Of a stretch of DNA of 57,699 nucleotides, positions 1,997 to 56,589 are shown piece by piece. Numbering within the stretch: position 1 is the stretch's first letter; the number at the start of each line of letters is the position of its first letter. Origin of the DNA: Eubacterium sp. (lineage in GTDB: Bacteria > Bacillota > Clostridia > Oscillospirales > Acutalibacteraceae); NCBI GenBank assembly GCA_017463985.1, contig JAFUEH010000013.1, positions 1 to 57,699 of the forward strand, given 5' to 3'. The translations under genes and the position numbers were made by a program. A model generated the notes under the pieces. The model worked only from the letters and a program-made list of their open reading frames with translations, was not told the origin of the DNA and made no database searches.

Positions 1997-4900
1997 TCAG
2001 CGCAGGCTGCTGCCGTCGATATTCAACTGTTCGGCATAAGCCGTTCGCAGCTCGCCGTAGCTGTCATAATAGGTCACATAGCCCCTTGCCGCCCAGCTAT
2101 AGCCGCTGAAACGACGGACGTTCACCAGATAATAGCCGCTTTCGGCAGCCGCTTCAAATTTTGAGGTGAGCATCTTATTGTTGAGGGTAACAAATATCTC
2201 CTCCGGATGGAAACGCGACGGTTTTCCGTAGCAGAAGGCGATCCCGACGGAGACAATGCTGCTGTCCTCCGCCAGCCCTGCACCAAGCACAAAGGTGTAC
2301 ACATCGTTAGCGCCGTCGTACGCGCCGGTTAGCTGCAGGCTCGGCGTACCGTTCTCGTTCGCTGTCGGCAGCTGTGCTTCATCCGGTCTGGCAAGGTCGG
2401 TATAGGCGGCTGTGATCACAACATCCTCACCGTCCTGCAGGCTGCTCAGCACCTCCTGTGCATCATACGCCCAGTGACCGTCCACGCTGCCGTAGCGATA
2501 CGGCACCTCCGGCAGCAGCGCCGCCAGCCCGTCAGCCGTAACCGCAGCCCATTCTTCGCGCGTTTTTATCATATATTCCTTGATATAGCCGCTATCGTTT
2601 TGGCAATACAACACCGCCGCGTCCTCCGGTACAAACAGCGCGCGCAGCGACGTGTTGGACGTCAGTGTGAAGGCATAATACGCAGCGTCGGTAGAAAAGA
2701 TCCGGTGGCTGTTCGTCTCATACCAGCCCTTAAAGGTATAGCCGCTGTCCGGTACTGCCGTCAGTTCGATCAACGTACCGAACGGTTCGTTTTCAAACGC
2801 TTCATCGGCAAGTCCTTCCAGGTATTCCTCATCCACGGTGATATCATAGCGTCCGTTTTCCGCAAAGAGCTGCAGGTTCAGATACGGTACGAGCGCACCG
2901 ATTCCGCTCAGCAGCGCCTCTGTGGCGGCATCGATCATATATTGCGGATCCTTGCCGGCAGCCAATTTTGACGCCTGCTGCGCCATGTCTGTCAGCTCCG
3001 CAAAAGAGCCCTCCTCATAATCCGCAGGATTCAGCAGTCCAAGCCGACTGATAACTTCCTGTAAAGCACTGTCGTCTGAAGCGAACGGCGTGTAGTGATC
3101 GATATAGGTAACGCCGCATTCAGTACAGGTATAAGCATCATATCCCCTTTCGTTCGGCGTTGCCGGAACAACGGTAACCGCCTCCGTCGGGAAATAATGC
3201 TTCGTCGCGTTCATCAGTGGCGTGTTCATCATTTCCACCGTGATGCTCTCAAAGGCTTCCTTTGTGCCGAAGAAATTGACGGTCTCCAGCGCATTACAGC
3301 CGTAGAAGGTCCTTCGGCCGATGGCGGTCATGCTGTCATAAAAGGAGACGGTTTTCAGGCTGCTGCACTGATAGAACAACAAATCATCAAGGGTCGTTAA
3401 ACTTTCGGGCAGCGTTACCTCCGTCAGGTCGGCACAGCCGTAAAACGCCGCTTCACCAATAGCCGTCAAGCCGTTTGGCAGGACCAGACGCTCCAATCCG
3501 ACGCAGCCTTTAAAGGCATTCATAGCAATCGCCTTCACCGTTTCGGGAATAACGGTCCGTCCACAACCGACAAGCAGCGTATCAGTAGCCGTTTCAATGA
3601 TCGCCTGACAATCCTCGCGGCTGTCATAAACCGTATTATTGGCGCCGACCGTGATGGCGGTCAACGCGGTACAATCAGAAAATGCTGCGCTGCCGATGCT
3701 CGTGACGGTGTCAGGAATCGCCACGCCGAGCAAGCCGGCACATCCGTAAAAGGCTCTCTCGCCAATACTGACAAGCCCGTTCTGAAAGTCAACAGCCGTT
3801 AAGCCTGCACGGTAAAATGCGTAATCTCCGATCGAGCCGACGCTGTGCGGGATCGCTACCTCCGCCAGGGCGGTGCAGCCGTAAAAAGCGTCCTCACCGA
3901 TCGCGGTAACGCTATCAGGAATGACAATATTTTGCAGTGCCGTACATTCATAAAAGGTTCTGTAATTCACGCTCGTAACACCGTCAGGCAGCACCAGCTC
4001 TGTTAATCCGGTGCAGCCGCTGAAGGCATAGTCACCGATCTCGCTGACGTTTTCGGGCACAGTCAGCGCTGTCAGTCCGGTGCAGTTACGGAAGGCATAA
4101 CTGCCGATGGCGGTAACGCTGTCCGGTATCACCGTGTTTTGGCAGCCGGCGACCAGCGTATCAGTAGCCGTTTCAACGATTGCCTGACAGTCCTCGCGGC
4201 TGTCATAAACGGTATTATCACGGTTCACGCTGATGGCAGTCAGCGAACGGCAGCCTTCAAAAGCGCCGGTGCCGATGCTCGTCACGTTTTCGGGAATCGT
4301 GACAGCAGACAGGCTGTTACAGCTGCTGAAGGCAAATTCACCGATGCTGACGATACTGCTCGGGAGCGTCACGCCTGTGACAGCCGAGCGATAAAAAGCA
4401 CGCGCACCGATCGCCGTCACGCTGTGTCCGTCATAAACGGACGGAATCACGATTTCCGTCTCATCGCCCTGATAGCCGATCACGGTAGCCGTGTCGCCGT
4501 CCACGGTAAACGAAAAGCCGTTGTTGCAGATCTTCGTTGCGGCAAGGAAGGGATCGTTGTGCAGGCCGACAGTAATTTGACCTAGCTCACTTTCCGTGCC
4601 GGTATAGAACACGGTGTTCAGTCCGGTGCATCCGTTAAAAGCACTGTCGTTGATGCCGATAACGCTCAGCGGCAGCGCCAGTCTTACCAAGCCGGTGCAG
4701 CCGGCAAAGGCCTGCTCCCCGACCGTTGTGATGCTGTCACCGATCACCGTCGTTTTACAACCGGCGATCAGCGTATCGGTCGCTGTTTCCACAATCGCGT
4801 TGCAGTTATCGCGGCTGTCGTAAACCGTGTTATACGGGCTGACGGTCATCGCCGTCATGGCGCTGCAGCCGCTGAAAGCACCGGCGCCGATCTGCGTAAT

Positions 4901-6199
4901 AGTAGACGGGATTACAACGCTTTTCAGTCCCGTCAAATCAGCGAACGCACCGGCGGCAATGCCCTGCACCGGCGCACCGCCCAGCGTCGGCGGCAGGTAT
5001 AAGTTCGTTTCTGCGCCGCTGTAGCCGGTCACCGTGGCAACGCCCTCGCTGACCGTATAAGTATAATCCTCCGCAGGATAAAAATAGCGGTTCGCCGTTT
5101 GCAGCGCCTCGTTGCCGGTCTCCACCGTCACATCGAGCCATTCGCTGACAGTGCCGAGGTAATTCACGCGTGAGAGGCTGCTGCAGCCGTAAAACGCGTT
5201 CGCGCTGACGGTCGTTACGCTGTTCGGCAAGGTCAACGCCGTGAGGGCGGTACAATCGCGGAACGCATAGTTGCTGACGGCGGTCAATCCGTCCGGCAGC
5301 ACCAGCTCCGTCAGCCCCGTACAGCCGCGGAAGGCGCTGTAGCCGATAGCGGTCACACCGGACGGCAGCGATAACTGCTTCAGTCCGGCGCAGCCGTAAA
5401 AGGCATAGTTTTCAATGCTTGTCAGCGCATCGGGCAGGATAATATCCGTTAAGCTTTCGCAGCCGTAAAAGCAGCGAAACGGAATATTTGTCAGCGCCGC
5501 CGGGAGCTGTACGCTCTTGAGCGACGAGCAGCCGCAAAACGCATACTGACCGAGGCTGTCCACACTGTCGGGAACAGCAATCGCCGTCAGCCCCGTGCAG
5601 CCACGGAAGGCGTACATTTCTATAATCTTAATGCCGTCAGGGATCACCGTGGTTTGGCACCCTGCCAGCAGTTTTTTCTTCGTCGTTTCTATGATCGCGT
5701 TACAGTTGCCGTTACTGTTATACTTTGTATTTTCCTCGCTGACCGTGATCGTTGTCAGCGAAGGACAGCTGTCCAGCAGGCCGATGCCGATGCTCGTCAC
5801 CGCTGCCGGAATAGTTAGCTGCTGCAGGCTGCTGCAGCCGGCAAACACAAAGCCGCCGAGGCTCCGCAGGCTGTCGGGCAGCGTGATCGCACGCAGCGCC
5901 GTGCAGCCCTCAAAGGCGTAATCACCGATCGCCGTTACACCGGATGGGAGCGTTACGCCGGTCAGCGTTTCGTCGTTGCTAAACGCTTCGTTGCCGATGC
6001 CAGTCACGGGATAGCCGTCAAGCGTGTCGGGGATCACCGGCGCCGTGTCGGTACCGGTATACGCTTCCACGGTCGCCTGTCCTGCCGCCACCGTATATTC
6101 AAATTCGCTGTCTGCGGCGCTGAAGGCCGGCAGCGGTGCCGCCGTGACCGTGCACAGCAGCAAGCATAGCGCTAAAAAGCTACTCAGCAGTTTTTTCAT
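1997..6199 (-). CDS. Secreted BspA-type leucine-rich repeat protein
   Basis: 1400 residues. A signal peptide (residues 1-28, ending PAFSA) is followed by about 1000 residues of LRR_5/BspA repeats of the form 'xxIPDSVTAIGxxAFxGCxxL', in four superblocks each ending in an 'AI(V/I)ET(A)TDTLxAGCxxTVI' linker. A short CTECG-type motif (YTCTECGVTYIDHY, near residue 1045), an InlB-like beta repeat (…GWYETNSHRIFSTDAAYYAF) and a C-terminal domain with ARGYVTYYDSYG follow. No LPXTG or dockerin is visible, so the anchoring mode is unknown. BspA-like proteins act in adhesion and host binding in other species; that role here is inferred. The start has AAGGTGAG upstream. It lies 57 bases behind an acidic peptide gene with a hairpin in between, so it is probably expressed partly by read-through. 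Confidence 0.85.
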   Translation of the reverse strand: MKKLLSSFLALCLLLCTVTAAPLPAFSAADSEFEYTVAAGQATVEAYTGTDTAPVIPDTLDGYPVTGIGNEAFSNDETLTGVTLPSGVTAIGDYAFEGCTALRAITLPDSLRSLGGFVFAGCSSLQQLTIPAAVTSIGIGLLDSCPSLTTITVSEENTKYNSNGNCNAIIETTKKKLLAGCQTTVIPDGIKIIEMYAFRGCTGLTAIAVPDSVDSLGQYAFCGCSSLKSVQLPAALTNIPFRCFYGCESLTDIILPDALTSIENYAFYGCAGLKQLSLPSGVTAIGYSAFRGCTGLTELVLPDGLTAVSNYAFRDCTALTALTLPNSVTTVSANAFYGCSSLSRVNYLGTVSEWLDVTVETGNEALQTANRYFYPAEDYTYTVSEGVATVTGYSGAETNLYLPPTLGGAPVQGIAAGAFADLTGLKSVVIPSTITQIGAGAFSGCSAMTAMTVSPYNTVYDSRDNCNAIVETATDTLIAGCKTTVIGDSITTVGEQAFAGCTGLVRLALPLSVIGINDSAFNGCTGLNTVFYTGTESELGQITVGLHNDPFLAATKICNNGFSFTVDGDTATVIGYQGDETEIVIPSVYDGHSVTAIGARAFYRSAVTGVTLPSSIVSIGEFAFSSCNSLSAVTIPENVTSIGTGAFEGCRSLTAISVNRDNTVYDSREDCQAIVETATDTLVAGCQNTVIPDSVTAIGSYAFRNCTGLTALTVPENVSEIGDYAFSGCTGLTELVLPDGVTSVNYRTFYECTALQNIVIPDSVTAIGEDAFYGCTALAEVAIPHSVGSIGDYAFYRAGLTAVDFQNGLVSIGERAFYGCAGLLGVAIPDTVTSIGSAAFSDCTALTAITVGANNTVYDSREDCQAIIETATDTLLVGCGRTVIPETVKAIAMNAFKGCVGLERLVLPNGLTAIGEAAFYGCADLTEVTLPESLTTLDDLLFYQCSSLKTVSFYDSMTAIGRRTFYGCNALETVNFFGTKEAFESITVEMMNTPLMNATKHYFPTEAVTVVPATPNERGYDAYTCTECGVTYIDHYTPFASDDSALQEVISRLGLLNPADYEEGSFAELTDMAQQASKLAAGKDPQYMIDAATEALLSGIGALVPYLNLQLFAENGRYDITVDEEYLEGLADEAFENEPFGTLIELTAVPDSGYTFKGWYETNSHRIFSTDAAYYAFTLTSNTSLRALFVPEDAAVLYCQNDSGYIKEYMIKTREEWAAVTADGLAALLPEVPYRYGSVDGHWAYDAQEVLSSLQDGEDVVITAAYTDLARPDEAQLPTANENGTPSLQLTGAYDGANDVYTFVLGAGLAEDSSIVSVGIAFCYGKPSRFHPEEIFVTLNNKMLTSKFEAAAESGYYLVNVRRFSGYSWAARGYVTYYDSYGELRTAYAEQLNIDGSSLR
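3581..4833. repeat. Dispersed near-identical DNA repeats inside the LRR gene
   Basis: Three about 60-base blocks, at 3581-3640, 4160-4219 and 4774-4833, are closely similar (they encode YDSRxxCxAIxETATDTL). They are about 580 and 615 bases apart, and a fourth weaker copy lies near 5670-5735. They are the linker ends of the repeat superblocks and could support recombination that changes repeat number. Confidence 0.7.
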
Positions 6200-6256: not shown

Positions 6257-6418
6257 TTAAAACTGGCCGTCGTTCGTGCCGAACGGATTGTCGTCGTCCT
6301 CTTCGTCGTAGTCGTCCTGCGAGCCGGAGGTGGAAATCACGTCCTTCACCGTGAACATCTCAATTGCTGCATAAGGCGCGCTGTATTTCTTTTTATATTC
6401 TAATTCTTCTAAAACCAT
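6257..6418 (-). CDS. Acidic 53-residue peptide, paralogue 1
   Basis: A short gene with start ATG at 6418, preceded by GGAGGA at a good distance, and stop TAA at 6257. The product begins MVLEELEYKKKYSAPYAAIE, continues MFTVKDVISTSGSQDDYDEE and ends DDDNPFGTNDGQF. It has a basic KKK near the N-terminus, then a very acidic block (D/E at 10 of 12 positions) and a short polar tail. It has no signal peptide and no hydrophobic segment long enough for a membrane. A paralogue at 43310-43477 has KKKYxxPxAxxExFTxxDxIxTSGSQDDYDEEDDDxPxG in common (pattern only). Both follow a giant exported protein gene in the same orientation, here by 21 bases. I know no named family; small KY-x-x-P…F…D-V-I-type ORFs are seen in gut Firmicutes but are uncharacterised to my knowledge. 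Confidence 0.75.
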   Translation of the reverse strand: MVLEELEYKKKYSAPYAAIEMFTVKDVISTSGSQDDYDEEDDDNPFGTNDGQF

Positions 6419-6439: not shown

Positions 6440-9400
6440 TTACGAATTTTGAATAAAGTAATCAGCTCTGCCATAAGAGATTGCCTCTACCGGTGCATCA
6501 ACTGTTTCAATTGTTTCGTCGCCTGTTTCATCCACGTCAACAACAGTTTGTGAGAAGTCGTAGGTGTACTTGACATAACCTCTTGCAATCATGTACGCAT
6601 ACCCGGTCGGCTTCGTGTTGCTGAAGGAGAACTGGTGCGACTGCTGATCATACGTCTTAGACGATGCCTTCTTCGTCACGGAATATTCCTTTCCGCCGGA
6701 CGTAAAGGTTTTACCGATCACGATGTCGCCCTCGCCGGCAGCAATATCGCTTACCAAGCTCTCGCTGTTGAGTGCCAGATAGGTTCTGCCGTGCTCGGTG
6801 ATCGTCACGTTGGCGTCGTCCGGAATATTCTGTGTGAACATGACGCGGAAGACATACTTGCCGGTGACGTTTTCTGTATCGAACTGGTCTACCACGAACG
6901 GCAGGTGCCTGTTCAGATAATATCTGTCAGTCGGGTTCGTGATCTTTGTACCGGCGCCGTTATTTCTGCCGTCGTCAACGGTGTAAACATTCGCCGTCGA
7001 GTCGCCCTTCTGAACCACCGTCTTGTAGATCGGGTAAACGTTCATGGTGCTGTTCGCCAGGAAGTAGAACTCGTTGCTGTAGGAGATCGGCACGTACTTC
7101 GGTACCGTACCGCCGGCCATTTCAGATACGTTGATGGCGATACCGTAGAATTCGCCCTTGCTGTCGTCCGGCGTGTAGGTGATTCTTACCTTGTCGTCAT
7201 ACTTAACGCCGCTCACACCGTTCGCGTAGGTCTTTTCGTCTACCGTCACTTCACCAAGCTCCTGATCGGTGCCGTTAATGTTGATCGTTGCCGGCGTGTT
7301 GCCGCTGTAACGAACTACATAACCGTCCGTTGCTACCATCTCTACGTGCGGTACCAGCTTCAGGTACGGCAGGCCTCTTTCGGCTCGCAGGGATTCCACG
7401 GTATACTCGTTGCCGTCATCGTCCGTCGCGCCGCTGTAAACCTTATCGTTCTCCTGTACGCCGATCGTCCACTCTGTGTTCTTGTACGCATAAGTCCGTG
7501 CGATGTCGTAGGTCTTGTCACCGATCGTGATGCTGATATTGCCTTTACTGTCAGCGTCATTAAAGACAACCTTGGCGTCCTTATCCACATTCAGTGAGTA
7601 CAGAACATTGTCCGTCGGGCCGAGAATCATCACGTTGACATTCTCATCCGTCGCAGGAGTGTTGACGTAAGCCGTTACGACCGTCGCGCCCTGTACATAG
7701 TTGCTCAGGCTGTTTTGGGCATGATAAATCGTCTGCGCCGCACCGTCACCGACTCTGACTGTCCACTTATAGCAGGTAGCGTTGTCCGGGAAAGAGGCAA
7801 ATTCTGTTGCATCGAAGGAAATTGTGGTACCGAAATCATACGTCCTTGTCTGCGTAGACCATACATCCACCGGCTCCTCGCCGTCCACAACAATACGGAA
7901 CTGAACATCATAAGACTTCAGCTGCGACTCGCCTTCGCCCTCACCGGCAGCCTCGCCGATGGCGGTCAGCAGATCAATAACACCCTGATCAACATAATTC
8001 TGCGGTGTCTGACCCTTTTCAGTCGACTTCGTCTTGATCGGTACAAAATCGTCCTCATAAGCGGTCTTCATCGCGGAAGAGGCAGCAGCCTGATAGGCTT
8101 CAAGGTCAAGCGTCTTATACGCAATTTCCAGCTCGTTATACGCGGACATATCTGCTGTGCCGTGGATGTGGGCGCTGTTCAGGACACATTCCCATTCAGA
8201 CAGTTGGTCTTCGTCCTCGTCCGCATACAGGTAGGTATGTGCGGAACCGGCTGTTTTATACTTCGCTGTTGCCTCGTTCAGCTCCTCGGCATATTCGTGA
8301 ATGGTTTTTGAGGAATATTCCGACGGATAGTAGCTGTCGGTGGTGGCAATCGCCGGTGCAGAAATCGCATTCTGTGCAGCGGTCAGCGCAGCCGTGTATT
8401 CGTCCCAAGCGCTGTCAACCGTGCATTCATCCTTTTTCAGCGGATTCAGCAGCGCTTCACGCAGGTCGCCGTACCAGTTGGTATCATCAGGATTGGAAGC
8501 CTCCGTAGAGGAGGAAGTCTTTTCCAGCTCGTCAGCGGACGGAACACGGATCTTGTTGTCGCCTGCCGTCGTATCGTCAGCAACAGTTTTGCCTGCTTCG
8601 TTTACGACTGCATCAGCTACACCGCTGAAGGAGTTAATAGCGGTTTTCATATCCTCTACGCACTGGTCAACGCCCGGGTTCGCGGAATTGCCGTGGGTGC
8701 CGCCGGTGGTCTTGGAATAATCGTAGCTATTCGGATCAAAGGAACCGATACCGTCAATCTTCTTCAGGAAGTCAATCAAATCCGCGGAATCCTCGTCATA
8801 CAGGAAGAGGTGCTGCAATACGTCCTTAACGTCGGTATTTTCAAGCAACGAAGCACGCGCATCCAAGATCGGCTTAACGTTGATAACGTTGATGGAAGCA
8901 GGAGCTTTGAAAATCGTATGAAGACCACTTGAGGAGCTTCCTGCATGACCGATAAAGTTCCAGTTTAAATGATCATAATTATCAAGATATGCGGACGGAT
9001 CATTCGTAAACTTTTTTCCTACATAATCAACGGAAGATACACCGGAGGAAACATAAGCACTTGCACCATATTTACGAATCCAAAGACGATAAGAATCTGT
9101 ATTATAACCCATCTCTTTACCGCCCAGAATCACATCGCTTTCATCGTAGGAAGCGCCTTTTTTCCAGTTAATTTCATAGCCGGCAGCAATATTTGAACCA
9201 TCGTTATGAACACGACCTATCCAATATTTTCCACTTACAGTTCCGCTGTGCTTACCATTAACATTTCTTTGAGTAGCCATCTCGAAAGATGCACTGTTAT
9301 CAACGAAGAATCCGGAAGACTCACGTTTAGCAGCTGAGGAAATGTCTTTTTTCTCCATACTAACGGCATCAGCATCTGTAGGATAAAAATTATCTACATA

Positions 9401-11161
9401 AGCGTTCGTGCCGCCCATTCCCAAAACTGTTGTTGTTTGATTAGAAAACGTTGCGGCAACAGGGAATCGTGGTGTTGTTATTCCGTCATACAATAAAACA
9501 ATATTGTTTGAGTGATACATTCTAATACCCGCAATATATGTACTTGACGGGGAATAACTATAAATCGGATTAGTCGCCTGTTCATAATAGAGCAGATTTT
9601 GTGCTGCTATACTATAGGCTATTGTAGAGGATGATTCCCCTGGGCTACCCTGTGACGTATTATAGAACGTGTATGCTGCATTACCGGAGGAACTGTCACC
9701 GCTGAAATATTTTACTCCATCGTCCGGATGATAATCGCCCTTAATAACCGCATCCTTCATCGGTGTGCAGTTCGCCACTGCCTTTTCCAATTTATTGGCA
9801 GTGTCTTTTAGTACAGCGATGAATTCATCGCTTCTGTTCTGGCCGTAAATGTACGCATCGAAGCATTCCTTGCCTTTCAGGTAAAGCGCATAGGTATCGG
9901 CAAGGTGCAGACGGAACGGGTCAGCCGCCATGTTGGCTTCAAACAGGTTGAGCATAGATACGATGGTATTAATGGAACCCTCGGCGCCGTTAACGCCGTC
10001 CAGGTCATTAATCGCATCGTCAAGATCTGTCCATGCTTTTTCAAAGCCTGCTTCCAGGTCGGTATCATAATGATAATTTGCATTGGAGAGGTTCAGACCG
10101 GTTGCGTTGTCAAACGCCGCAAAAATCTCGGTCGAGCCGCCGGCCTTTGCACCGTCGCTCGATACGTCAAGATAGGTATCCTTATACTTGGTGATAGAAG
10201 CCTGCATTGCATCCAGCAGCATCTTATAGTTCAAGACATATACCGGTTCAGTCGTATTCAGGCTGTTGTCGCCCTCGCCGACATGCTCATTACCAGTAAC
10301 AAGGTTGCCCCAATAGGGATATGTGTTCCACTCAAATCGGGAATATTTCTTATAAAGCTGAGTGTCGCTCAGCGTAAATACCAAGGAGTTATTGAAGTTC
10401 CAATAGTAGGAATTACCGCCGTGCTTATTTTCCGCATCATAGTAATCCGAAGCATTAACATCAACCGGAACGTAAGCATCGTAAGTATCCTCGGTTTTGC
10501 CTGCCCAGCTGATGGCATAGTCAGTGGAATCAGAGGAGCTGCTACCGGCGATAGTATGACCGTACCAATAATCCTTTAAGCGGCCGCCGGATTCTCTGAC
10601 ATAACGGAAACGGAAGGAATATCTACCCATATTTTCCTTATCCGCAAATACAACCGGCAGCTCGGCATTATTCGTACCGTCATACAGCAGCACGCCGCCG
10701 CGCTGATAAATAAACCAGTCAGCGCTGTACTTTAAGATACCGTTAGACCATGATACAAAGCCGTGAGGAATATCGGAATATTTAACTGTTCCCGGGTCAG
10801 CGCTGTACAGTACGTTGCCGTAATAACCGGTGGTTTCCGTACCGTTAATGCTGACAGACTGGAAGCTATTGTACATATCCGCATTCTGTGAGAATACCGT
10901 CATATTATCCACAGCCGCCTGCAGTGCGTCCGCCTGATCCTGACCGGCACCGTCCTTGCACGCCTCTACGTAAGCCAAATATGCCGGCAGCAAATTATTA
11001 TAGACTGTTCCGTTACGCATTGTGTTAATTTTGTTAACATAATTATTTTTGGCTTGCGTCAGCGTGGCTGCATAAGCCGTCATGGCGCCGAACGGCAAAA
11101 CGGTGATCACCATTAACACCGAAAGCATCACTGCCAACAGTCTTTTGCTGAACTTCTTCAT
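6440..11161 (-). CDS. Giant secreted surface protein with LYDG modules
   Basis: 1573 residues from ATG 11161, chosen because AGGAGGAAAT precedes it and a clear signal peptide follows (MKKFSKRLLAVMLSVLMVIT…MTAYAA); an in-frame upstream ATG at 11248 would spoil the signal. After it come helical FIVAR-like stretches and two copies of an unnamed module with the motif LYDGTNNAELPV (residue ~160) and LYDGITTPRFPV (~556), then more helical segments rich in 'ALxxAxxxI', then beta-rich domains (around 1110-1480) and a C-terminal domain with VTITEHGRTYLAL and ARGYVKYTYDF. No catalytic motif, sortase signal or dockerin is visible. It is paralogous to the C-terminal two thirds of the 43511-50188 product. 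It is exported; adhesion or glycan binding is only a guess. Confidence 0.8.
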   Translation of the reverse strand: MKKFSKRLLAVMLSVLMVITVLPFGAMTAYAATLTQAKNNYVNKINTMRNGTVYNNLLPAYLAYVEACKDGAGQDQADALQAAVDNMTVFSQNADMYNSFQSVSINGTETTGYYGNVLYSADPGTVKYSDIPHGFVSWSNGILKYSADWFIYQRGGVLLYDGTNNAELPVVFADKENMGRYSFRFRYVRESGGRLKDYWYGHTIAGSSSSDSTDYAISWAGKTEDTYDAYVPVDVNASDYYDAENKHGGNSYYWNFNNSLVFTLSDTQLYKKYSRFEWNTYPYWGNLVTGNEHVGEGDNSLNTTEPVYVLNYKMLLDAMQASITKYKDTYLDVSSDGAKAGGSTEIFAAFDNATGLNLSNANYHYDTDLEAGFEKAWTDLDDAINDLDGVNGAEGSINTIVSMLNLFEANMAADPFRLHLADTYALYLKGKECFDAYIYGQNRSDEFIAVLKDTANKLEKAVANCTPMKDAVIKGDYHPDDGVKYFSGDSSSGNAAYTFYNTSQGSPGESSSTIAYSIAAQNLLYYEQATNPIYSYSPSSTYIAGIRMYHSNNIVLLYDGITTPRFPVAATFSNQTTTVLGMGGTNAYVDNFYPTDADAVSMEKKDISSAAKRESSGFFVDNSASFEMATQRNVNGKHSGTVSGKYWIGRVHNDGSNIAAGYEINWKKGASYDESDVILGGKEMGYNTDSYRLWIRKYGASAYVSSGVSSVDYVGKKFTNDPSAYLDNYDHLNWNFIGHAGSSSSGLHTIFKAPASINVINVKPILDARASLLENTDVKDVLQHLFLYDEDSADLIDFLKKIDGIGSFDPNSYDYSKTTGGTHGNSANPGVDQCVEDMKTAINSFSGVADAVVNEAGKTVADDTTAGDNKIRVPSADELEKTSSSTEASNPDDTNWYGDLREALLNPLKKDECTVDSAWDEYTAALTAAQNAISAPAIATTDSYYPSEYSSKTIHEYAEELNEATAKYKTAGSAHTYLYADEDEDQLSEWECVLNSAHIHGTADMSAYNELEIAYKTLDLEAYQAAASSAMKTAYEDDFVPIKTKSTEKGQTPQNYVDQGVIDLLTAIGEAAGEGEGESQLKSYDVQFRIVVDGEEPVDVWSTQTRTYDFGTTISFDATEFASFPDNATCYKWTVRVGDGAAQTIYHAQNSLSNYVQGATVVTAYVNTPATDENVNVMILGPTDNVLYSLNVDKDAKVVFNDADSKGNISITIGDKTYDIARTYAYKNTEWTIGVQENDKVYSGATDDDGNEYTVESLRAERGLPYLKLVPHVEMVATDGYVVRYSGNTPATININGTDQELGEVTVDEKTYANGVSGVKYDDKVRITYTPDDSKGEFYGIAINVSEMAGGTVPKYVPISYSNEFYFLANSTMNVYPIYKTVVQKGDSTANVYTVDDGRNNGAGTKITNPTDRYYLNRHLPFVVDQFDTENVTGKYVFRVMFTQNIPDDANVTITEHGRTYLALNSESLVSDIAAGEGDIVIGKTFTSGGKEYSVTKKASSKTYDQQSHQFSFSNTKPTGYAYMIARGYVKYTYDFSQTVVDVDETGDETIETVDAPVEAISYGRADYFIQNS

Positions 11162-43309: not shown

Positions 43310-43477
43310 TCAGAATGCCGAATCATTGACCCCGTTGGTGCCGTTGCTGCCCCACGGATCATCGTCGTCCTCTTCGTCGTAGTCATCCTGCGAACCGGAG
43401 GTGCGGATAATATCCGTCATAGTGAACAGCTCAACCTCTGCCCAAGGTGTATCGTATTTTTTCTTGCTCAGTCTCAT
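43310..43477 (-). CDS. Acidic 55-residue peptide, paralogue 2
   Basis: ATG 43477 with AGGAGG upstream, TGA at 43310. The product starts MRLSKKKYDTPWAEVELFTM, continues TDIIRTSGSQDDYDEEDDDD and ends PWGSNGTNGVNDSAF. It shares with the 6257-6418 product the KKKYxxPxA start, the FT-x-x-D-(V/I)-I segment and an unbroken TSGSQDDYDEEDDD core, while the ends differ. It is encoded 33 bases behind the 2225-residue exported protein, in the same operon orientation. No signal or membrane segment. Function unknown; conservation of exact core at two loci argues for a real, selected peptide. Confidence 0.75.
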   Translation of the reverse strand: MRLSKKKYDTPWAEVELFTMTDIIRTSGSQDDYDEEDDDDPWGSNGTNGVNDSAF

Positions 43478-43510
43478 ATTCTTAACCCTCCTGTTTTAAC
43501 TAAGTCCGGC

Positions 43511-46500
43511 TCACTGCGTGTTGGCGGCTGAGAACTCACAGATGTTCACAGGGCCGTAAGCAATGGCGTCGATCTTGGCACCTTCGTAGGTGTAAGAATA
43601 TTTTACGTAAGCACGTGTGTAGAGCACCTGGGCGGTGCCTGTGCCGTTCGTTCTGGAGTAAGAATACTGGTTGCTGTCCTTGTCGCGGTTGCCGTTGACG
43701 CGGTTGAATACGCTGTTGGCATTGCCAACGTTTTCAATCGTCAGCTTGCGCTCGCTGCTGAAGGAACCGTTCGCTGTGTAAAGCGTACCGCATTCTGTGA
43801 TGGTAACATCGCCAACGCTGCCGCCGCCTACCTGTGCGGTAAAGGCGGAACGCGTTGTCCAGCGGTTATCCTGATTGCCGCTCGTGCCGGTCGGCTCAGC
43901 GTAAGAGTAGATCAGCGGCAGCTTAGCGTCAAGGTAGAACAGCATCTCGTCGCCCGTTACCTTATACGGTGCATACTCGCCTTCCTCTGTGCTGCTGTTG
44001 AGCGCCGGCAGGTAATAGCCCGCGTCAATACCGGTCGTGCCGTCTGTTTTCACCAGCGTGTAGAAGTCCATGCCTCTGTTCACGTAGAAGCGATACGTAT
44101 TGTCGTACGTAACCGGAACGAAAATGTCGTTATCGGTGTTGGCAAAGACGATGCCCCAAACTGTACCGCCGTAGGTCCAGTTGCTGTTGGCCGCTTCGCC
44201 GCTCTCCGCTGCGTTGACTCTCAGATGGTAGTCATACGGCACGTCGCCGTCCGGAACATCCGTACCGTCCACTGTGAACGAGTAAACCGTGCTCGCGTCG
44301 CTGTATTTCCAGCTCTTTTCAGGCTTCAGAACAAGCTCTGTGCCGGTACCGATCAGGTCGCCAACGGTCGTGCCCTCGTCAAAGGAGGTAACCACCGCGG
44401 CGTTGTAATTCACGTGCCAGCCGGAGATGGAATAGGTCAGCGAATCCGGAACGATTCTTCTGTCCGTGCCGCCGAGGATGATCGTGTTCACGTTGTTTTC
44501 ATCGATCGCGATCGTCGTATCAGCCGTCACGTTGATCGTGTAGAATTCCTTGTCGGCGGTGTTCTTGATAATCAGCTTGAGGTCAGTGGGGATCGCCATA
44601 ATAACAGCGTTCACCTCTGTATCCTTTTGGCTGTTGAGTACGATCGATTCGTCGTGGTTGTTCACACGCTTGCCGCCGATCTCCCAATACTGCACCTGAT
44701 ACGTTGCCGCATCCCAGCCGTCGTAATTTGCTACGCTGATCGTCGGCGTGGTGCCGTAATCGTTCGTCGTGGTGTCACTGTAAACCGCTTCGTTGTTCAG
44801 CGTGCCGTCAGCGTTCATGACGTAGACATTAAAGGTAATGTTGTAGGTATTCGGAACAGACGGATCTTCCTCAATGCCTTCCGCTGCGTTGGCGGTGTTG
44901 ATCGCTTCCAGCAGCGTAGCGATACCGTGATCCACGATATCCTGCACCTTGGCTGTTTCAGACTTATTTTGCTGTCCCTCGGTAGAGAAGACATTCGTCT
45001 TGACCGCGTCGAATACGGTCTTACCGCGCTGGATCGTGCTGAAGTTGTTATACTTCGACGGGTCCAGCGTGTTATAAACGATCTGCAGCATATCATAAGC
45101 CGTACCGTCCGCCGGAACCACTGTCTCCGCAACGGTACCGTGGTGATAAACCTCATGACCGTTGTTGTTGTTACACTGGAACCACATATTGTGGGTACCG
45201 ACTTCCCTATAGCTGAACTTCATCGGGTGCGCCGTGTTAGCAGCGTCAGACAATGCCTTGTAAGCAGTATCCAAATCTTTTGCCAACGTATTGATAGCGT
45301 CTGCATCGTATGCGGTGCTATTGTAGCCCTGCTTATCCGTGTAGTTAGCGGTGTTCGCGTCAGCGATGTCCGCCATACCGGCCCGCGCGTTATCAATTGC
45401 AGTCTGGAAGCTGTTCCAGGCGCTGTTGATGATACAGCCCTGCTCGGTCGCCTGTGCTGCTTCCAGCAGCGCGATCTTCAGGTTTGTGTAAGCACCATTA
45501 TTTTCACTGATCGGATTCAGCGCACCGTTAGCGTCATAGATGTCACCCTTAGTGTTGGCGTTCTGCGCCGCCGGTACCTCGGTATCCAAGCTGGCAGCCG
45601 CGTCGCAAGCCGCTTTAATGGCATTTGCACATTCGGTCACTTTGCTCGGAACCTGAGAGTCGTTCATGTTATTGAAGTAGCTGGTCGGGTCAACGCCGGT
45701 AATGGTATCAATTTTTGCCAGCCAAGCTTTGAAGTTGTTTTCGTCGCTCTTCAGACCGCCCTCTACGTACTGCTTCACATCAATGCCGTTTTCAAAGGCC
45801 GGCAGGCTTTCCAGCACTTCCGTCAGTGCTTTATAGTTGATAACGTAAACCTTTCCTAAAGTACCTTCGTCATTCTTCCATGCGTTATTAGGATTATTAT
45901 TTCGAGAAGTACAAAGTGCAAACTGAATATTATTAATTTCTTGATAATAATAATCCAAATTGCTTTTATCCGTTGACGTTCCGCCGGTGCCGGTATAAAA
46001 CATCTTATTTACAAACTGCCTGGGTGTTCCTGTGTTGCTATGTGTTTGACGGGAATAACTACTGGTAGCATACAGATAGTTTTCTCTATAGCCCGAAGCA
46101 GTCCCATCATATCCGGAAGTATTGAAATGATATTGCTTACCAAAATCGTTATAACCACGCCAGTAACCACGAAGTTCAAACGGGCAATTATTGTTTGGCA
46201 TACGGCAATAATAAATACTTTGATTCTTACCATTGCTATTGGCTTTAAATGTAAATCCTACAGGAAGAGAAGGTGTTGTCTTTCCGTCATAAACTAAAAC
46301 TGCTATTGTAGGAGTTAAGTATTTATATGCTGCCGCATTATAATCGTTGTTCGCAACCTCCTTAGTAGTTATAGAACAATAAAGGATATTGTTGAAGCCT
46401 GCATTATCATCGCTGTCTACAGGATCAGCATTACTGTCAGGAATAGCAGTACTGTGGAAATATGCCGTTCCGTTAAACGTAACATCGTTCAGGCTTGTCA

Positions 46501-49500
46501 TATTGGCTGTGGCTTCTTCCAGCTGCTGCGCAGCGATTGCCAGCGTCGGGTTGGTAAAGGTTTCGCGTGCGCCAAATTCGTAAGCGTCCTTGTACTCTGC
46601 TGCCAGTACGTAAGCCTCGTAAGCCGCCTCCAGGTTGGTGTACGGCGTGGTCATCGCCTTCATCTTAGCTTCATACGCTTCGATCGCAGCGCACAGGCGC
46701 TCATAGTTCGCGGTCTCGGTCGTGATCTTAATATCGCTCAGGAGCACTACCGACGCATCAATATCGTTACCGCACAGCAGCGCCGCCGCGTCCATAGCAT
46801 CCTCATCAGCGCCGTTGTATTCATACGTGTGGTTAAAGTAGGTGCTGCCGGTGCGCGGGTCAAGGGAGGTAGCGGAATCATAAGCCGCAAAAATACCTTC
46901 CAGGCCGCCGCCCTGATACTTTTCTACTAAGTCAGCAAGGTAGCCCTTATTGGTGGCACTGTTCGCCGCTGCTTTCAGGGCATCCGTCAGTTTCTTGTAG
47001 TTAATAACATCGATATCAGGAATCGCGTCCGTGATCGTATCGTTAATCCAGTGGTCGTTAACATAGTTATATGCGCTGCGGATATTCCATGTTGTGGAGG
47101 AATAGCAGGTGTATGCCGACGTCGGTACCGCCGTATAGGTCAAGCTGTTTTTCACAATACGGTAGGTATCTGTCGTACCGGAATCAAAGGTGTTCATACC
47201 GTAGCCAGCACCAAAATCAGCGTCCCAGTTTTCGCCATCGCTGCGGAACTGATTATCACTGTCTGCCGGCCAAATAAAGGTAGTGGAATCTTTTTTACCG
47301 GTCCAGTAGGTATTGAGCGTAAATTCCGTCATATCCGTACCGACGTCAAGAATTTCAACGTCATAGCGGTTATCGTCATTACGGAAACCGAGCATGACCG
47401 GTACCTTCGGGTCGGTCTTGCCGTCATAGAGCAGCACCGTTGCCGGATAGTAAAGATAAGCCCAGGAGCCGTATCTTGCCCCGATACCGTGCTTTTCATA
47501 AATCTCTGCGCTGATTTCGCTGTCGAAGCCGTGCTTGCCGTCCGAGTTGCCGCCCTCGGCATAGATCACGTTGCTGTAATAGCCGGCTTCCGGATTATAG
47601 TTAGCGTCCTCTTCGCCGGGCGTTGCGTTCGCCGTCACCTCAACGAACGGCTTCATATTCGTCAGCGCCTTATTTAACGCTGCCAGCGCCTCGCCCTCGT
47701 CGGGGGTACCAGGCGCCTTCACCGCTCTCTTGTAGGCGGTGTACGCAGCGGACAGGTTCGTGTACATCACGGTGTAGCCGCTGGCAGCCATTTTAGCGAT
47801 ACGGCTTTCGTAGATCGCCATCGCTTCTGCCAGCGTAGCAGCGTTAACCGTTTCTTCGGTATCGTCAACCTTTTCGGCAGCGTCCTGCTGCTGTTGCTTT
47901 TGGTACAGCACCGCAGGATCGATCGCCTTGGTATATACACGGAAATCGTCAAAGTTCGTGTTCGACGCCGCATTCCACCAGCCAACGTTAGAGGTACCCA
48001 GTCTGACGTCGATCGTATTTTGCAGGAAGAACGCGTGCGGGTTGTACGCGTGATCGGTCATATTATTGTAGCCGGTCGTCTGGTCATTCACCGAAGTGCC
48101 GTTGACGAACGTACGAAAATGCACCGAGTTGCCGTCCGGAATAATATTGATCTGAATATAGTACCAAGTATTCGCTGCGAAAGTATAAATACTGGAGGAA
48201 TCGTAGTAATGCTGTGTAGAGCCGTCGCCCCAGCAGTAGTTAATGATACCGTCCTCGCGGAGGTTCAGATACTGCTTGGAATTGTCCGTGCCGCCCCAGC
48301 CGAGGGAGAAGAGCGAGCCCTCTTTGCTGCTGCCGATGTTGAACCAGCCTGCGACGGTATAGGATGCGCCTCTGCCGCCTGCCATCGAGGTCGTCACGCC
48401 TGCGCTACCGCCGGCGGTTGCGTTGATTCTGCCGTTGATGGTCTCGGTGCCCTCATTGTACTGATACAGCAGCTCGGACTGAATTGCGGTTTCGGACGCT
48501 ACCTGCGAAGCCGTTAAGGTCTTATTACGGAAACGAACGTTGGTATACGCGCCATGAACACCGGTCACGCCGCAGGTATCTGTCCAACCGAAAGCAACGT
48601 AATGCGTTGAGCCTTCATTATTAAATCCAAGTGTGCCGATCGCATCCTCGCATACCTTGACGCCATCCTTATACAGGATAATATTGGTGCCGTCGTAAGT
48701 GATTGTGAAGGTATATTCCACGCTGGTATTGATGGTTGTAGAACCGATTTCCTTATAAGCGCCGTCCTTATAGAGATAGAAGCTACCGTTATCCGTAAAG
48801 CGAATCCAGTCAATGCTGGAGGCGGGATTATCACCGGAGGTCAGCGCAAAAATCGGAGCGCCTCGCTGTTCCATAACCGAAACATCAAAAGAAGCAGTCC
48901 ATTTGGTATCTGTCATCATAGCTCTGACAGCACTATCGTTAATAAATACGGTACTGCCGTTAAGCGATATATAATGCTCATCGGTATAGGAATACGAATA
49001 CTGACCGCTGTTGGTCATGACATCGTAGGTATAACCCGAGGTATCTGTAATAGCAACATAATCCCAAGCGTTTTCCTGTACATAATTCTGTGAGTTGAAA
49101 TTGTAGCGGATATCCTCATTGGTCGCAATGCCGTAAGCATTCTTCAGCGCGTTGTATTCTGTCTCGTTAATGTTAAGAACAGAGCCGTGACGGGGACCAA
49201 GCACGCTGATACTGCTTGACATGGTAGCGTTATAATAACCGCTGATGTCATTATTGGAAGAAACCGCGGCATAAAAGGCATCGAGGTCATCGCCGATGTC
49301 ATAGCAAGCGAACACGCCGTTAGCACTGTAACGGTCCGCCATCAGCACATAGCCGGCCGGATTGTCGCCTTCCGCCTCTTTCCACCATACCTGGCAGCCC
49401 TCGAGCGCACCAATGTCAGAACCGGCGTCAAGCTTGACGATATTGTCGGTATCATACAAGCCATGCGCCGTATCGGAGGTCACAATACAGATACCGCCCT

Positions 49501-50188
49501 GCGTTTCGTCCTTATAGAACATGTAGTATGTACCGTTGTAATAGGTGATATCGCCGTCGATGGAGTCCATGCTTGATGTCGCGTTATTCTTCATCATCGG
49601 CTGCGGCGCAGAATAAGCGCTCTGATCCAGCAGGTCGGCGGTGTACATATAATGCATCTTTGTACCGCCGGCGGAATAGCCGTTTGCTGCAAGGCCAAAA
49701 TAAACCATATACTTGCCTTCGCTGGCGTCCCAAATCACCTGCGGCGCCCATGCGCGGTGCACGTCAACACCCGTGATGGCAGCAACGTCGATAATGGTTT
49801 CATTCGTCCATGTCACTAAGTCGTTAGAACGCCAGAGCACAAAGCTGTTGCTGTTGCCCCACCAACCGCCGGAAGCGTCCATATCGGTCGCGATCGCGTA
49901 ATACTTTCCGTCCTGACCGCGGAAAATGTATGGGTCACGCGCACAGCCTGTACCTAAATTCTGCTTGATAACAGGGTCGTTCTTATTGATGGCGTAATAC
50001 GTATCGCCATCCTCCGAGAGCGCAAATTTAATTCTTTGCTGCTCGGTGGTGTTGCCGGTGAAATACGCAAAGAGATAGCGGTCTCTCGCTTCATCGGCGC
50101 CCGCCGTCAACGCGCTGAACGGCATAACGGTGAATACCATTACTACCGCCAGGAACGCAGAAAGCAGTCTCTTGCTGAGCTTCTTCAT
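43511..50188 (-). CDS. Giant secreted GH43 + LamG + LYDG-module protein
   Basis: 2225 residues with a signal peptide (MKKLSKRLLSAFLAVVMVFT…LTAGA). Residues ~35-350 are a GH43 propeller with an intact catalytic triad: base D85 (CARDPYIF), D211 (SIDGDITYYNG) and acid E263 (ALEGCQVWW), so arabinofuranosidase/xylosidase-type activity is plausible. Two LamG/concanavalin-like domains follow (~360-555 and ~575-765, ending DDFRVYTKA), then helical FIVAR-like segments alternating with two LYDG modules (LLYDGKTDPKVPV ~920, LVYDGKTTPSLPV ~1300), then beta domains and a C-terminal domain with VTITECGTLYT and TRAYVKYSYTY. No sortase or dockerin motif. AGGAGGAAAT precedes the ATG. Paralogue of the 6440-11161 protein, which lacks the enzyme part. 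Confidence 0.88.
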   Translation of the reverse strand: MKKLSKRLLSAFLAVVMVFTVMPFSALTAGADEARDRYLFAYFTGNTTEQQRIKFALSEDGDTYYAINKNDPVIKQNLGTGCARDPYIFRGQDGKYYAIATDMDASGGWWGNSNSFVLWRSNDLVTWTNETIIDVAAITGVDVHRAWAPQVIWDASEGKYMVYFGLAANGYSAGGTKMHYMYTADLLDQSAYSAPQPMMKNNATSSMDSIDGDITYYNGTYYMFYKDETQGGICIVTSDTAHGLYDTDNIVKLDAGSDIGALEGCQVWWKEAEGDNPAGYVLMADRYSANGVFACYDIGDDLDAFYAAVSSNNDISGYYNATMSSSISVLGPRHGSVLNINETEYNALKNAYGIATNEDIRYNFNSQNYVQENAWDYVAITDTSGYTYDVMTNSGQYSYSYTDEHYISLNGSTVFINDSAVRAMMTDTKWTASFDVSVMEQRGAPIFALTSGDNPASSIDWIRFTDNGSFYLYKDGAYKEIGSTTINTSVEYTFTITYDGTNIILYKDGVKVCEDAIGTLGFNNEGSTHYVAFGWTDTCGVTGVHGAYTNVRFRNKTLTASQVASETAIQSELLYQYNEGTETINGRINATAGGSAGVTTSMAGGRGASYTVAGWFNIGSSKEGSLFSLGWGGTDNSKQYLNLREDGIINYCWGDGSTQHYYDSSSIYTFAANTWYYIQINIIPDGNSVHFRTFVNGTSVNDQTTGYNNMTDHAYNPHAFFLQNTIDVRLGTSNVGWWNAASNTNFDDFRVYTKAIDPAVLYQKQQQQDAAEKVDDTEETVNAATLAEAMAIYESRIAKMAASGYTVMYTNLSAAYTAYKRAVKAPGTPDEGEALAALNKALTNMKPFVEVTANATPGEEDANYNPEAGYYSNVIYAEGGNSDGKHGFDSEISAEIYEKHGIGARYGSWAYLYYPATVLLYDGKTDPKVPVMLGFRNDDNRYDVEILDVGTDMTEFTLNTYWTGKKDSTTFIWPADSDNQFRSDGENWDADFGAGYGMNTFDSGTTDTYRIVKNSLTYTAVPTSAYTCYSSTTWNIRSAYNYVNDHWINDTITDAIPDIDVINYKKLTDALKAAANSATNKGYLADLVEKYQGGGLEGIFAAYDSATSLDPRTGSTYFNHTYEYNGADEDAMDAAALLCGNDIDASVVLLSDIKITTETANYERLCAAIEAYEAKMKAMTTPYTNLEAAYEAYVLAAEYKDAYEFGARETFTNPTLAIAAQQLEEATANMTSLNDVTFNGTAYFHSTAIPDSNADPVDSDDNAGFNNILYCSITTKEVANNDYNAAAYKYLTPTIAVLVYDGKTTPSLPVGFTFKANSNGKNQSIYYCRMPNNNCPFELRGYWRGYNDFGKQYHFNTSGYDGTASGYRENYLYATSSYSRQTHSNTGTPRQFVNKMFYTGTGGTSTDKSNLDYYYQEINNIQFALCTSRNNNPNNAWKNDEGTLGKVYVINYKALTEVLESLPAFENGIDVKQYVEGGLKSDENNFKAWLAKIDTITGVDPTSYFNNMNDSQVPSKVTECANAIKAACDAAASLDTEVPAAQNANTKGDIYDANGALNPISENNGAYTNLKIALLEAAQATEQGCIINSAWNSFQTAIDNARAGMADIADANTANYTDKQGYNSTAYDADAINTLAKDLDTAYKALSDAANTAHPMKFSYREVGTHNMWFQCNNNNGHEVYHHGTVAETVVPADGTAYDMLQIVYNTLDPSKYNNFSTIQRGKTVFDAVKTNVFSTEGQQNKSETAKVQDIVDHGIATLLEAINTANAAEGIEEDPSVPNTYNITFNVYVMNADGTLNNEAVYSDTTTNDYGTTPTISVANYDGWDAATYQVQYWEIGGKRVNNHDESIVLNSQKDTEVNAVIMAIPTDLKLIIKNTADKEFYTINVTADTTIAIDENNVNTIILGGTDRRIVPDSLTYSISGWHVNYNAAVVTSFDEGTTVGDLIGTGTELVLKPEKSWKYSDASTVYSFTVDGTDVPDGDVPYDYHLRVNAAESGEAANSNWTYGGTVWGIVFANTDNDIFVPVTYDNTYRFYVNRGMDFYTLVKTDGTTGIDAGYYLPALNSSTEEGEYAPYKVTGDEMLFYLDAKLPLIYSYAEPTGTSGNQDNRWTTRSAFTAQVGGGSVGDVTITECGTLYTANGSFSSERKLTIENVGNANSVFNRVNGNRDKDSNQYSYSRTNGTGTAQVLYTRAYVKYSYTYEGAKIDAIAYGPVNICEFSAANTQ

Positions 50189-56300: not shown

Positions 56301-56589
56301 GCGCGGCTCGGTTACCGGCTTTGCGGATGAACTCCATACGTTTCAATATATCTTCGCCTACAATATCCCTAAACTCCTCACTGCCGATCAGAATAACAAG
56401 GGTATCCTGATAGGGCATAACAAGGTCGCCGTCAACGGAATACATCCATTTGACAGCTGCCTCCATCGCCCTGCGGCAGTTGATAACGCTTAAAGAGGTG
56501 TCAATATTCAACACCTTTTCAGCAGTAACCGCTACCTCGGCAAAGCCTTTAAACTTAGGCTCGTCCCTCAAATAATCAAAGTTGGTCAT
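53302..56589 (-). CDS. hsdR: Type I restriction enzyme R subunit
   Basis: 1095 residues. N-terminal DUF4145-like helical region (CRRAMEAAVKWMY, about 40-130), nuclease domain with the PD-(D/E)xK-type signature GYADYVLYDDTGKPLAIIEAKRT (about 227-249), then SF2 helicase/translocase: MATGSGKTRTVIAL (Walker A), ICDEAHRS (DEAH box), GLTATPKDEI, SVDMLDTGIDVPEVLNLVFFK and QMIGRGTRLC (motif VI), and an EcoEI-type C-terminal helical domain. It cleaves foreign DNA after translocation as part of an HsdRMS complex. hsdM and hsdS are not in the window, presumably to the right. It starts nine bases after the HAD gene's stop. Confidence 0.95.
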   Translation of the reverse strand: MTNFDYLRDEPKFKGFAEVAVTAEKVLNIDTSLSVINCRRAMEAAVKWMYSVDGDLVMPYQDTLVILIGSEEFRDIVGEDILKRMEFIRKAGNRAAHETKTVSYDEAALCLENLFVFLDFVAYCYSDTYEERQFDKALLESHNEPVKVLESPSVDLAVLIKENEELKEQLTARRAEQQVTYVPKPLDLSEYKTRKIYIDAMLRDVGWIEGKNWLNEVELEGMPNASKVGYADYVLYDDTGKPLAIIEAKRTCKDIAIGRQQAKLYADILEKKHGRRPVIFLTNGFDTRITDDIYPERKCSSIYSKRDLEKMFNLQTMRTSLKNIYVNPNIAGRYYQEAAIKAVCDSFDNRKRRKALLVMATGSGKTRTVIALVDVLLQHGWIKNILFLADRNSLVTQAKRSFVNLLPDLSATNLCETKNDPFAHCVFSTYQTMMNCIDNIKDDEGKLFTAGHFDLIICDEAHRSIYNKYRDIFNYFDAPLVGLTATPKDEIEKNTYEIFELNNGEPTYGYELAQAVKDGYLVDYVSVESTLKFIDQGIVYDDLSEEDKAAYEETFTDENGELPEAIQSSAINEWVINEDTIKEVLHVLMRDGLKIDYGETLGKSIIFAKNHTHAEKIFEIFNKEYPNYAGYAKVIDNYTNYAQSAIDEFSDPNKLPQIAISVDMLDTGIDVPEVLNLVFFKKVMSKAKFWQMIGRGTRLCEGLIDGKDKDRFYIFDFCGNFEFFRFSKGKPTANMLALQSAVFHLKSQIAYKLQDADYQTEELITFRQSLVEEMADKVKELNRENFAVRQHLKYVDLYSNPDNYSALTYEDTLIIGEELAPLILPDGDESSAVRFDALLYGIELAYLIGKKYKRARSDLIKKVSAVASVANIPEIQSHSEMIDKVLHTDYVDTAGINEFEQIRTELRNLMKYIPRKKILYLTNFNDEILDVNWNDSELENDDLQNYKMKAEYYVRQNQNNIVIAKLKSNQPLTEQDIRSLEEILWKEVGSREEYEAEYGEKPLGEFVREIVGLDMNAAKEAFADYLNSVNLDSRQIYFVNQVIEYIVHNGVLKDMSVLQEAPFTDQGSIVEVFTDITVWAGIKKIIDSINANAIA

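Follow-up and report, generated by a model that had tools for sequence, protein, structure and literature searches.

The stretch of DNA analysed here (the window; positions 1 to 57,699 of contig JAFUEH010000013.1, assembly GCA_017463985.1, Eubacterium sp., Acutalibacteraceae) contains two short open reading frames (ORFs) on the minus strand, each lying directly behind a gene for a giant exported protein. They encode small peptides with a YxxP leader, and they are probably precursors in a peptide modification system resembling that of the linear polyphosphorylated peptides (LPP). The genes and domains concerned are listed below; signal peptides were judged by eye.

43310..43477, minus strand: YxxP precursor-like peptide 1, 55 amino acids (aa), ribosome-binding site AGGAGGG
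6257..6418, minus strand: YxxP precursor-like peptide 2, 53 aa, ribosome-binding site GGAGGA
43511..50188, minus strand: giant exported protein 1, upstream partner of peptide 1, 2225 aa, signal peptide
43511..44023, minus strand: C-terminal domain of giant 1 (RAYVKY...AIAYG), of the kind tracked by the peptide
6440..11161, minus strand: giant exported protein 2, upstream partner of peptide 2, 1573 aa, signal peptide
6440..6952, minus strand: C-terminal domain of giant 2 (RGYVKY...AISYGRAD)

Both peptide genes have a GGAGG-type ribosome site and follow their giants after 33 bases (peptide 1) and 21 bases (peptide 2). The peptides have in common KKKYxxPxA...FTxxD(I/V)I and an unbroken block, TSGSQDDYDEEDDD, over an aligned span of 41 residues; their alignment score is 166, while the best of 10,000 shuffles scored 61 and none reached 166. 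Peptide 1 consists of the leader KKKYDTPWAEVELFTMTDIIRTS and the tail GSQDDYDEEDDDDPWGSNGTNGVNDSAF. Its Tyr, Pro, Asp (14 residues after the Tyr, Y+14) and Ser (Y+19) are common to most relatives. Pfam and NCBIfam scans of the two peptides matched nothing, and no signal peptide was apparent by eye. A sequence-only reading of this DNA had described two short ORFs with ribosome-binding sites, encoding paralogous peptides 21-33 bases behind giants with signal peptides, and the ORFs, alignment score, ribosome sites and gaps agree with that description. It had also held the peptide core to be more conserved than the giants. This is true, but 39 of the 42 core bases are identical in the two genes, so part of the core conservation could stem from recent copying or conversion.

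Residues 37-198 of giant 1 match the alpha-arabinofuranosidase model NF052546 (E 1.2e-27, below the model cut-off), and a Pfam scan of this protein gave no match. The start of giant 2 is most likely the ATG at 11161, which gives 1573 aa; the longer ORF of 1602 aa has a TTG start. The best BLASTP segments between the two giants have E values of 1e-24 and 8e-24 with 28% and 25% identity, so their placement in one paralogous family, as first proposed, holds in part.

The peptides are more numerous than the two loci first noticed. Searching the whole genome with the window peptide recovered four copies, and a profile of relatives recovered 11, the weakest at E 0.95. YxxP is present in all 11 of these profile-found copies. 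In ten of the 11, the next gene upstream, 2-65 bases away, is an ORF of 945-2225 residues that begins with a signal peptide as judged by eye (one of the ten peptides lacks an ATG, and its gap was counted from the first codon of its ORF). The weakest match, on contig C18 (C, L and G numbers are our labels for contigs of this genome, loci and genomes), was accepted as genuine because of its setting, in which an exported protein gene is followed by the peptide, an NTP_transf_5 gene and a kinase gene. On contig C17, two giant-peptide pairs stand back to back (L143 4302-14961); their peptides are near-identical with identical tails, and these paired loci are probably a recent duplication.

Relatives are widespread in the genus and occur across the order. 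Within the genus, a first profile (threshold E 0.1) matched in 70 of 80 genomes, with as many as 15 matches in one genome. A second profile matched in 52 of 247 genomes sampled across the order at E 0.01, corresponding to 36 of 134 genera; a few of these order-level matches are doubtful, being located in ORFs of more than 130 residues. A first scan of named genomes with the window peptide confirmed no relative. Scanning with a conserved subgroup yielded 36 loci from metagenome-assembled genomes (MAGs) titled uncultured Clostridia, Eubacterium, Ruminococcaceae and similar. Among them, the peptide of L147, from a MAG titled Eubacterium sp., does not differ from the one in G079, and the peptide of L146, from Ruminococcaceae bacterium UBA7101 (placed by NCBI in the Oscillospiraceae), agrees with the G023 query at all 34 residues; both G079 and G023 belong to the genus of the window.

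Collected relatives comprise 82 distinct peptides, after removal of one false peptide (L123) from 83. A same-strand ORF of at least 150 residues lies within 400 bases upstream of 75 of the 82 and within 70 bases of 63, and the median gap is 21 bases (n=75). Among complete upstream ORFs, 24 of 35 have at least 700 aa and a signal peptide, compared with 13 of the 620 remaining ORFs across all loci, by a crude signal-peptide rule that misses some cases plain by eye. Of the 82 peptides, 81 have a net acidic tail, 70 an acidic residue at Y+14 and 69 a Ser at Y+19. Selection of these peptides used YxxP-like patterns, so that the invariance of Tyr and Pro among them is a product of selection; one round additionally demanded an acidic-hydrophobic pair behind this motif together with Ser or Thr somewhere from Y+16 to Y+21, which accounts for some of the Ser count. 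In 110 pairs chosen at 70% identity or more, which are related and non-independent, the pooled ratio of nonsynonymous to synonymous change (pN/pS) comes to 0.20 for the leader and 0.38 for the tail. Two outcomes that the sequence-only reading had named as counting against itself were not seen: homologues beside a comparable neighbour do occur, and the ratio lies well below 1.

A C-terminal region (GF-Y ... ARAYV-DG--YS) recurs in many of the upstream proteins. A short motif from it lies within 110 residues of the C-terminus in 37 of 72 upstream ORFs and in 30 of 715 others, and several of those 30 are further peptide-bearing giants. The structure model of this domain from giant 1 was poor (predicted local distance difference test, pLDDT, 44.8). 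The sole well-modelled copy, from a relative, is a beta-sandwich followed by two helices (pLDDT 83.5), and comparison of this model with the PDB gave no informative match. The peptide tail co-varies with the last 130 residues of the giant when the preceding segment is taken into account (r 0.36, p 5e-4, the lowest value that 2000 permutations allow); in the reverse test the preceding segment adds no signal (r 0.00, p 0.51). The 63 pairs used in both tests have an upstream ORF of 420 aa or more, no farther than 240 bases away (L192, L202 and L203 excluded). The C-terminal domain and the peptide behave as one 3' module attached to varied front parts.

YxxP is the leader motif that discrete recognition elements (RREs) of ribosomally synthesized and post-translationally modified peptides (RiPPs) bind in lasso peptide and LPP precursors (PMC13381572, PMC12710340). 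LPP were described from Paenibacillus alginolyticus, with LppA, K, B, S, D and N (Popov et al., 2026; PMC13381572). The genome of the window encodes two discrete RREs, both 92-aa frames over the PF05402 cut-off, on contigs C1 (RRE1) and C37 (RRE2). It also encodes two HprK-like kinases on C40 and C18 (E 2.6e-81 and 2.0e-71 with a profile from linked loci) and one signal peptidase I-like (SpI-like; SipW-like) peptidase on C16 (profile E 7.4e-35). An ABC exporter gene directly follows the peptidase gene; MsbA-type models are among its many matches, below cut-off. Four matches to PF14907 (NTP_transf_5) were found, of which one was seen on C37 and another is probably the NTP_transf_5 of C18; PF14907 is taken here as the counterpart of LppN, on the assumption that LppN itself belongs to this family. 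By these matches the predicted LPP-type gene set is complete in this genome, mostly scattered over contigs.

RRE2 precedes an NTP_transf_5 gene and lepA, and this trio was seen by eye in most of 20 loci of the genus, as far as these were listed, often behind an RlmD-like methyltransferase gene. The RRE-NTP_transf_5 pair ahead of lepA lies at L070 6876-8277 (plus strand) and in most of L113-L132; it was not seen by eye upstream of lepA in the nine loci taken from peptide-less genomes. RRE1 (L068 305-2871, minus strand) is followed by an apparent histidine kinase and response regulator, and L130 holds a further RRE close to a pair of this kind (all by eye). The RRE may have a regulatory use. One of the genome's own NTP_transf_5 genes (L142 6489-7682, plus strand) lies inside a polysaccharide gene cluster with sugar nucleotidyltransferase, dehydratase and GtrA-like genes.

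Linkage of peptide and machinery survives at a few places inside the genus, as giant-peptide-RRE (G076), giant-peptide-kinase (G100) and giant-peptide-NTP transferase-kinase (C18 of the window's genome). In other genera it is the common arrangement among 12 loci picked for closeness of peptide and PqqD: kinase and RRE genes occur in 11, an SpI gene also in ten and an NTP transferase gene in five, as scanned with kinase, SpI, NTP transferase and part of the RRE models that were built largely from these loci. Pfam confirms the RRE and NTP transferase in L232 and ABC exporters in L232, L237 and L242. In L232 an ORF of 1166 residues is followed by the peptide, kinase, RRE, SpI, exporter and NTP transferase genes. 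Surface proteins form the neighbourhood of LPP-like loci in other genera: SLH-domain proteins are encoded beside such loci at L235 7026-8060 and L239 8409-9623, and a dockerin protein at L237 10674-11816, all on the minus strand.

Two kinds of additional locus were noticed within the genus. Kinase-RRE fusions occur in G033 and G063 (L266 7805-9001, minus strand; L267 4035-5177, plus strand), with Pfam support for the PqqD part of the L266 fusion, with genes for an SpI-like peptidase and an NTP_transf_5-like protein, among other ORFs, in the vicinity; these look like a separate RiPP cluster. G031 carries a clustered LPP-like locus (L265 7447-12697, minus strand) with a 137-residue precursor-like ORF (NPEINVILFSNEDVIATSG...), an RRE, an exporter-like ORF, an SpI, a kinase and an NTP transferase, which is a predicted second, clustered system alongside the dispersed one.

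Peptide and machinery also co-occur. Across the order, PqqD was found in 48 of 52 peptide genomes versus 68 of 195 peptide-less genomes (p 1.4e-14), and by genus in 34 of 36 versus 43 of 98 (p 3e-8); these comparisons span many genera and ignore deeper relatedness. Within the genus, strong PqqD matches (E below 1e-10) are present in all 70 peptide genomes and in none of the ten peptide-less ones. Of those ten, eight show no PqqD at E 0.001; the other two match weakly (1.7e-4 and 6.9e-4), and one of these two counts among the 71 of 80 genomes over the family cut-off. The kinase is absent from all ten peptide-less genomes, and SpI from nine, the tenth having a weak match. A kinase match is present in 63 genomes of the genus, two of which have only a contig-end fragment. 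All ten peptide-less genomes have a single PF14907 match, and 68 of the 70 peptide-bearing genomes have two to five.

These observations make it probable that the peptides are dispersed LPP-like precursors of an RRE-dependent system, each expressed with its own surface protein and working with it outside the cell. Of the four functions initially suggested for the peptide (chaperone, anchor adaptor, secreted signal or precursor peptide), the last is favoured by the YxxP leader, the variable acidic tail and the machinery genes, which are linked to the peptide in other genera. In the proposed pathway, the small stand-alone RRE protein would bind the YxxP leader and pass the peptide to the HprK-like kinase, whose likely target, where leader and tail meet, is the Ser at Y+19. 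The RRE would also pass it to the NTP_transf_5 enzyme, which may add a second group. The SpI-like peptidase would then cut off the leader, leaving the acidic tail to be sent out by the ABC exporter of the adjacent gene. The usual cluster appears to have come apart in this genus, so that about ten precursors each stand behind their own giant and one to four copies per enzyme would serve them all. The predicted co-expression of the peptide with its giant, and its co-variation with that giant's C-terminal domain, suggest that the finished peptide acts with the giant outside the cell.

Several observations weigh against this interpretation. Peptide and machinery genes are mostly unlinked in the genus of the window. 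The leader consensus of LPP, YxxPxVLxHQxIxFETxxS (PMC13381572), differs from that found here (A1, MKKxYxxPxAEIExFxxxDVITTS; A3 is similar). Curated models match the kinase weakly (ScmC, 9.5e-6 on the copy in this genome; HprK_rel_A, 0.0047 on the L232 copy), and they match SpI weakly and below cut-off (sigpep_I_arch, 4.3e-4; SipW, 0.0019). One of the 11 copies, on contig C12, is not behind a giant and lies 412 bases after a gene resembling a tRNA-modification gene (L144 6521-6676, plus strand); its tail is nearly equal to the tails of the C17 copies. Four of the 52 order-level peptide genomes lack PqqD, and two of these peptide matches, in ORFs of 336 and 797 residues, look false. In the genus the kinase is missing from seven and SpI from five of the 70 peptide genomes, several of these assemblies being incomplete or fragmented. 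On a LepA tree of 65 genomes, the nine peptide-less ones included fall into a single group; the tree left out G030 and G075 (LepA not recovered), G003 and G090 (no match) and the unfetched rest of the 80. The genus-level co-occurrence therefore counts as one event, not ten, and was not retained as strong evidence.

Closeness on the DNA alone could also yield the tracking of the giant's C-terminus. The functional partnership first proposed from two loci gains from its recurrence and from this tracking, with that reservation on the latter, and the same reservation favours a different account. It is possible, though we lean away from it, that the peptides are LPP-like precursors for which the giant is a mere vehicle: the peptide gene would sit at the 3' end for expression, and its product would be a signal or a weapon without contact with the giant. 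LPP and paeninodin clusters are patchy in Bacilli, as in conflict systems (PMC13381572), the gene pair after RRE1 resembles a two-component regulator, and a response regulator gene lies in two linked loci (L232 and L233), all of which would suit a signal or weapon. A mere vehicle would hardly be of one class as repeatedly, across genera and with differing front parts, as the upstream gene is, and the peptide tracks one particular domain of it. An unlikely elaboration of the favoured reading is surface tagging or anchoring from RiPP parts, in which a phosphorylated, sugar-bearing acidic peptide from the shared LPP-like pathway, encoded by the adjacent gene and dedicated to that one giant, would fix the giant, via its Ig-like sandwich domain, to cell-surface polysaccharide.

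The remaining accounts dispense with LPP-like processing. The tight 3' position, the acidic tail and the apparent lack of a signal peptide would suit a peptide that stays unmodified in the cytoplasm and serves the giant as a chaperone, another of the functions suggested at the outset, or as a helper in export, with YxxP and the RREs present by coincidence. We regard this as improbable, since RRE, kinase and SpI genes adjoin the YxxP peptide in other genera and PqqD co-occurs with it by genus, and an export helper would hardly need such genes. Less credible still are ordinary lasso peptide precursors. They would explain the YxxP leader, the matches of the discrete RRE to lasso PqqD models (below cut-off) and to the lasso PqqD chaperone 9x90 in the PDB (E 0.0037). 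No macrolactam cyclase (PF00733-like) or B2 protease was found among the chosen ORFs scanned with Pfam, a set that left some neighbours unscanned and did not extend to a search of the window's own genome, and the SpI-type peptidase beside the peptides is of LPP type. That the short ORFs are untranslated can be virtually dismissed: they are short and have no family model, but the low pN/pS in leader and tail, the ribosome sites and the fixed spacing of Tyr, Asp and Ser speak for translation.

One further gene of the window may belong with peptide 2, and lies just 3' of it.

1997..6199, minus strand: BspA-type leucine-rich-repeat protein, 1400 aa, signal peptide by eye

Its C-terminal end carries an RGYVTY segment resembling the ends of the giants, and the gene is perhaps in one operon with peptide 2; no same-strand ORF of at least 40 aa lies between it and the next gene. 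Elsewhere in the window, 53302-56589 (minus strand) encodes a 1095-residue protein resembling, by eye, a type I restriction R subunit.

According to its discoverers, the role of LPP is unknown, the final product could not be identified and deletion of lppN caused no detectable change in their test system (PMC13381572). The present loci tie LPP-like precursors gene by gene to large exported proteins of gut Clostridia, co-varying with one domain of them. The question of the LPP role thereby becomes testable: does the modified peptide bind or anchor the C-terminal domain of the giant? Because most precursors sit far from the enzymes in this genus, these results suggest that gene-cluster scans would overlook many precursors of this kind. 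Among the 10 papers listed of 61 dated 2024 or later, PMC13381572 alone contains the phrase "linear polyphosphorylated peptides". In the literature searches, judged from listings and the openings of abstracts and with most subscription journals and preprints outside their coverage, no paper was found on LPP-type peptides behind giant exported proteins.

Among known systems, the prochlorosin type likewise has many dispersed precursors and one enzyme away from them; its chemistry differs from that of the system described here, and we know of no tie between it and giant surface proteins. The SynChlorMet/HPr-rel-A systems (TIGR04248/TIGR04249/TIGR04352) also combine PqqD-type and HprK-type proteins, and weak matches to ScmC, ScmD and HprK_rel_A were obtained, but all of these are below cut-off. 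Lasso peptides of the paeninodin/pseudomycoidin type share the RRE (PMC13381572), the HprK-like kinase and the nucleotidyltransferase-like PsmN, which is annotated as a nucleotidyltransferase and in pseudomycoidin reportedly attaches one or two hexoses to the Ser that carries the phosphate (PMC9266682). They differ in that neither cyclase nor B2 was found among the chosen ORFs scanned here, and in their leaders, which are nearly all WxxP (PMC13381572), whereas YxxP is found here. LPP belong to Bacilli and the present system to Clostridia, in which about ten precursors are dispersed, most behind a giant exported protein, and the machinery is mostly unlinked in the genus of the window and clustered in other genera of the order. 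We do not file the system as LPP proper, because its residues following YxxP do not fit the LPP motif and its genes are not gathered in one cluster in the window's genome. Its likeness to LPP nevertheless extends to the YxxP leader, the highly variable tail, the discrete RRE, HprK-like kinase, SpI-like peptidase, ABC exporter and NTP transferase, to the K-B-S-D-N gene order in L232 and L235, and to the capsule-type genes near L237 and L239. It also includes a conserved Ser near the leader/core border, which stands at Y+19 here and is matched by the phosphorylated Ser of LppA at Y+18, counted from the printed motif (PMC13381572).

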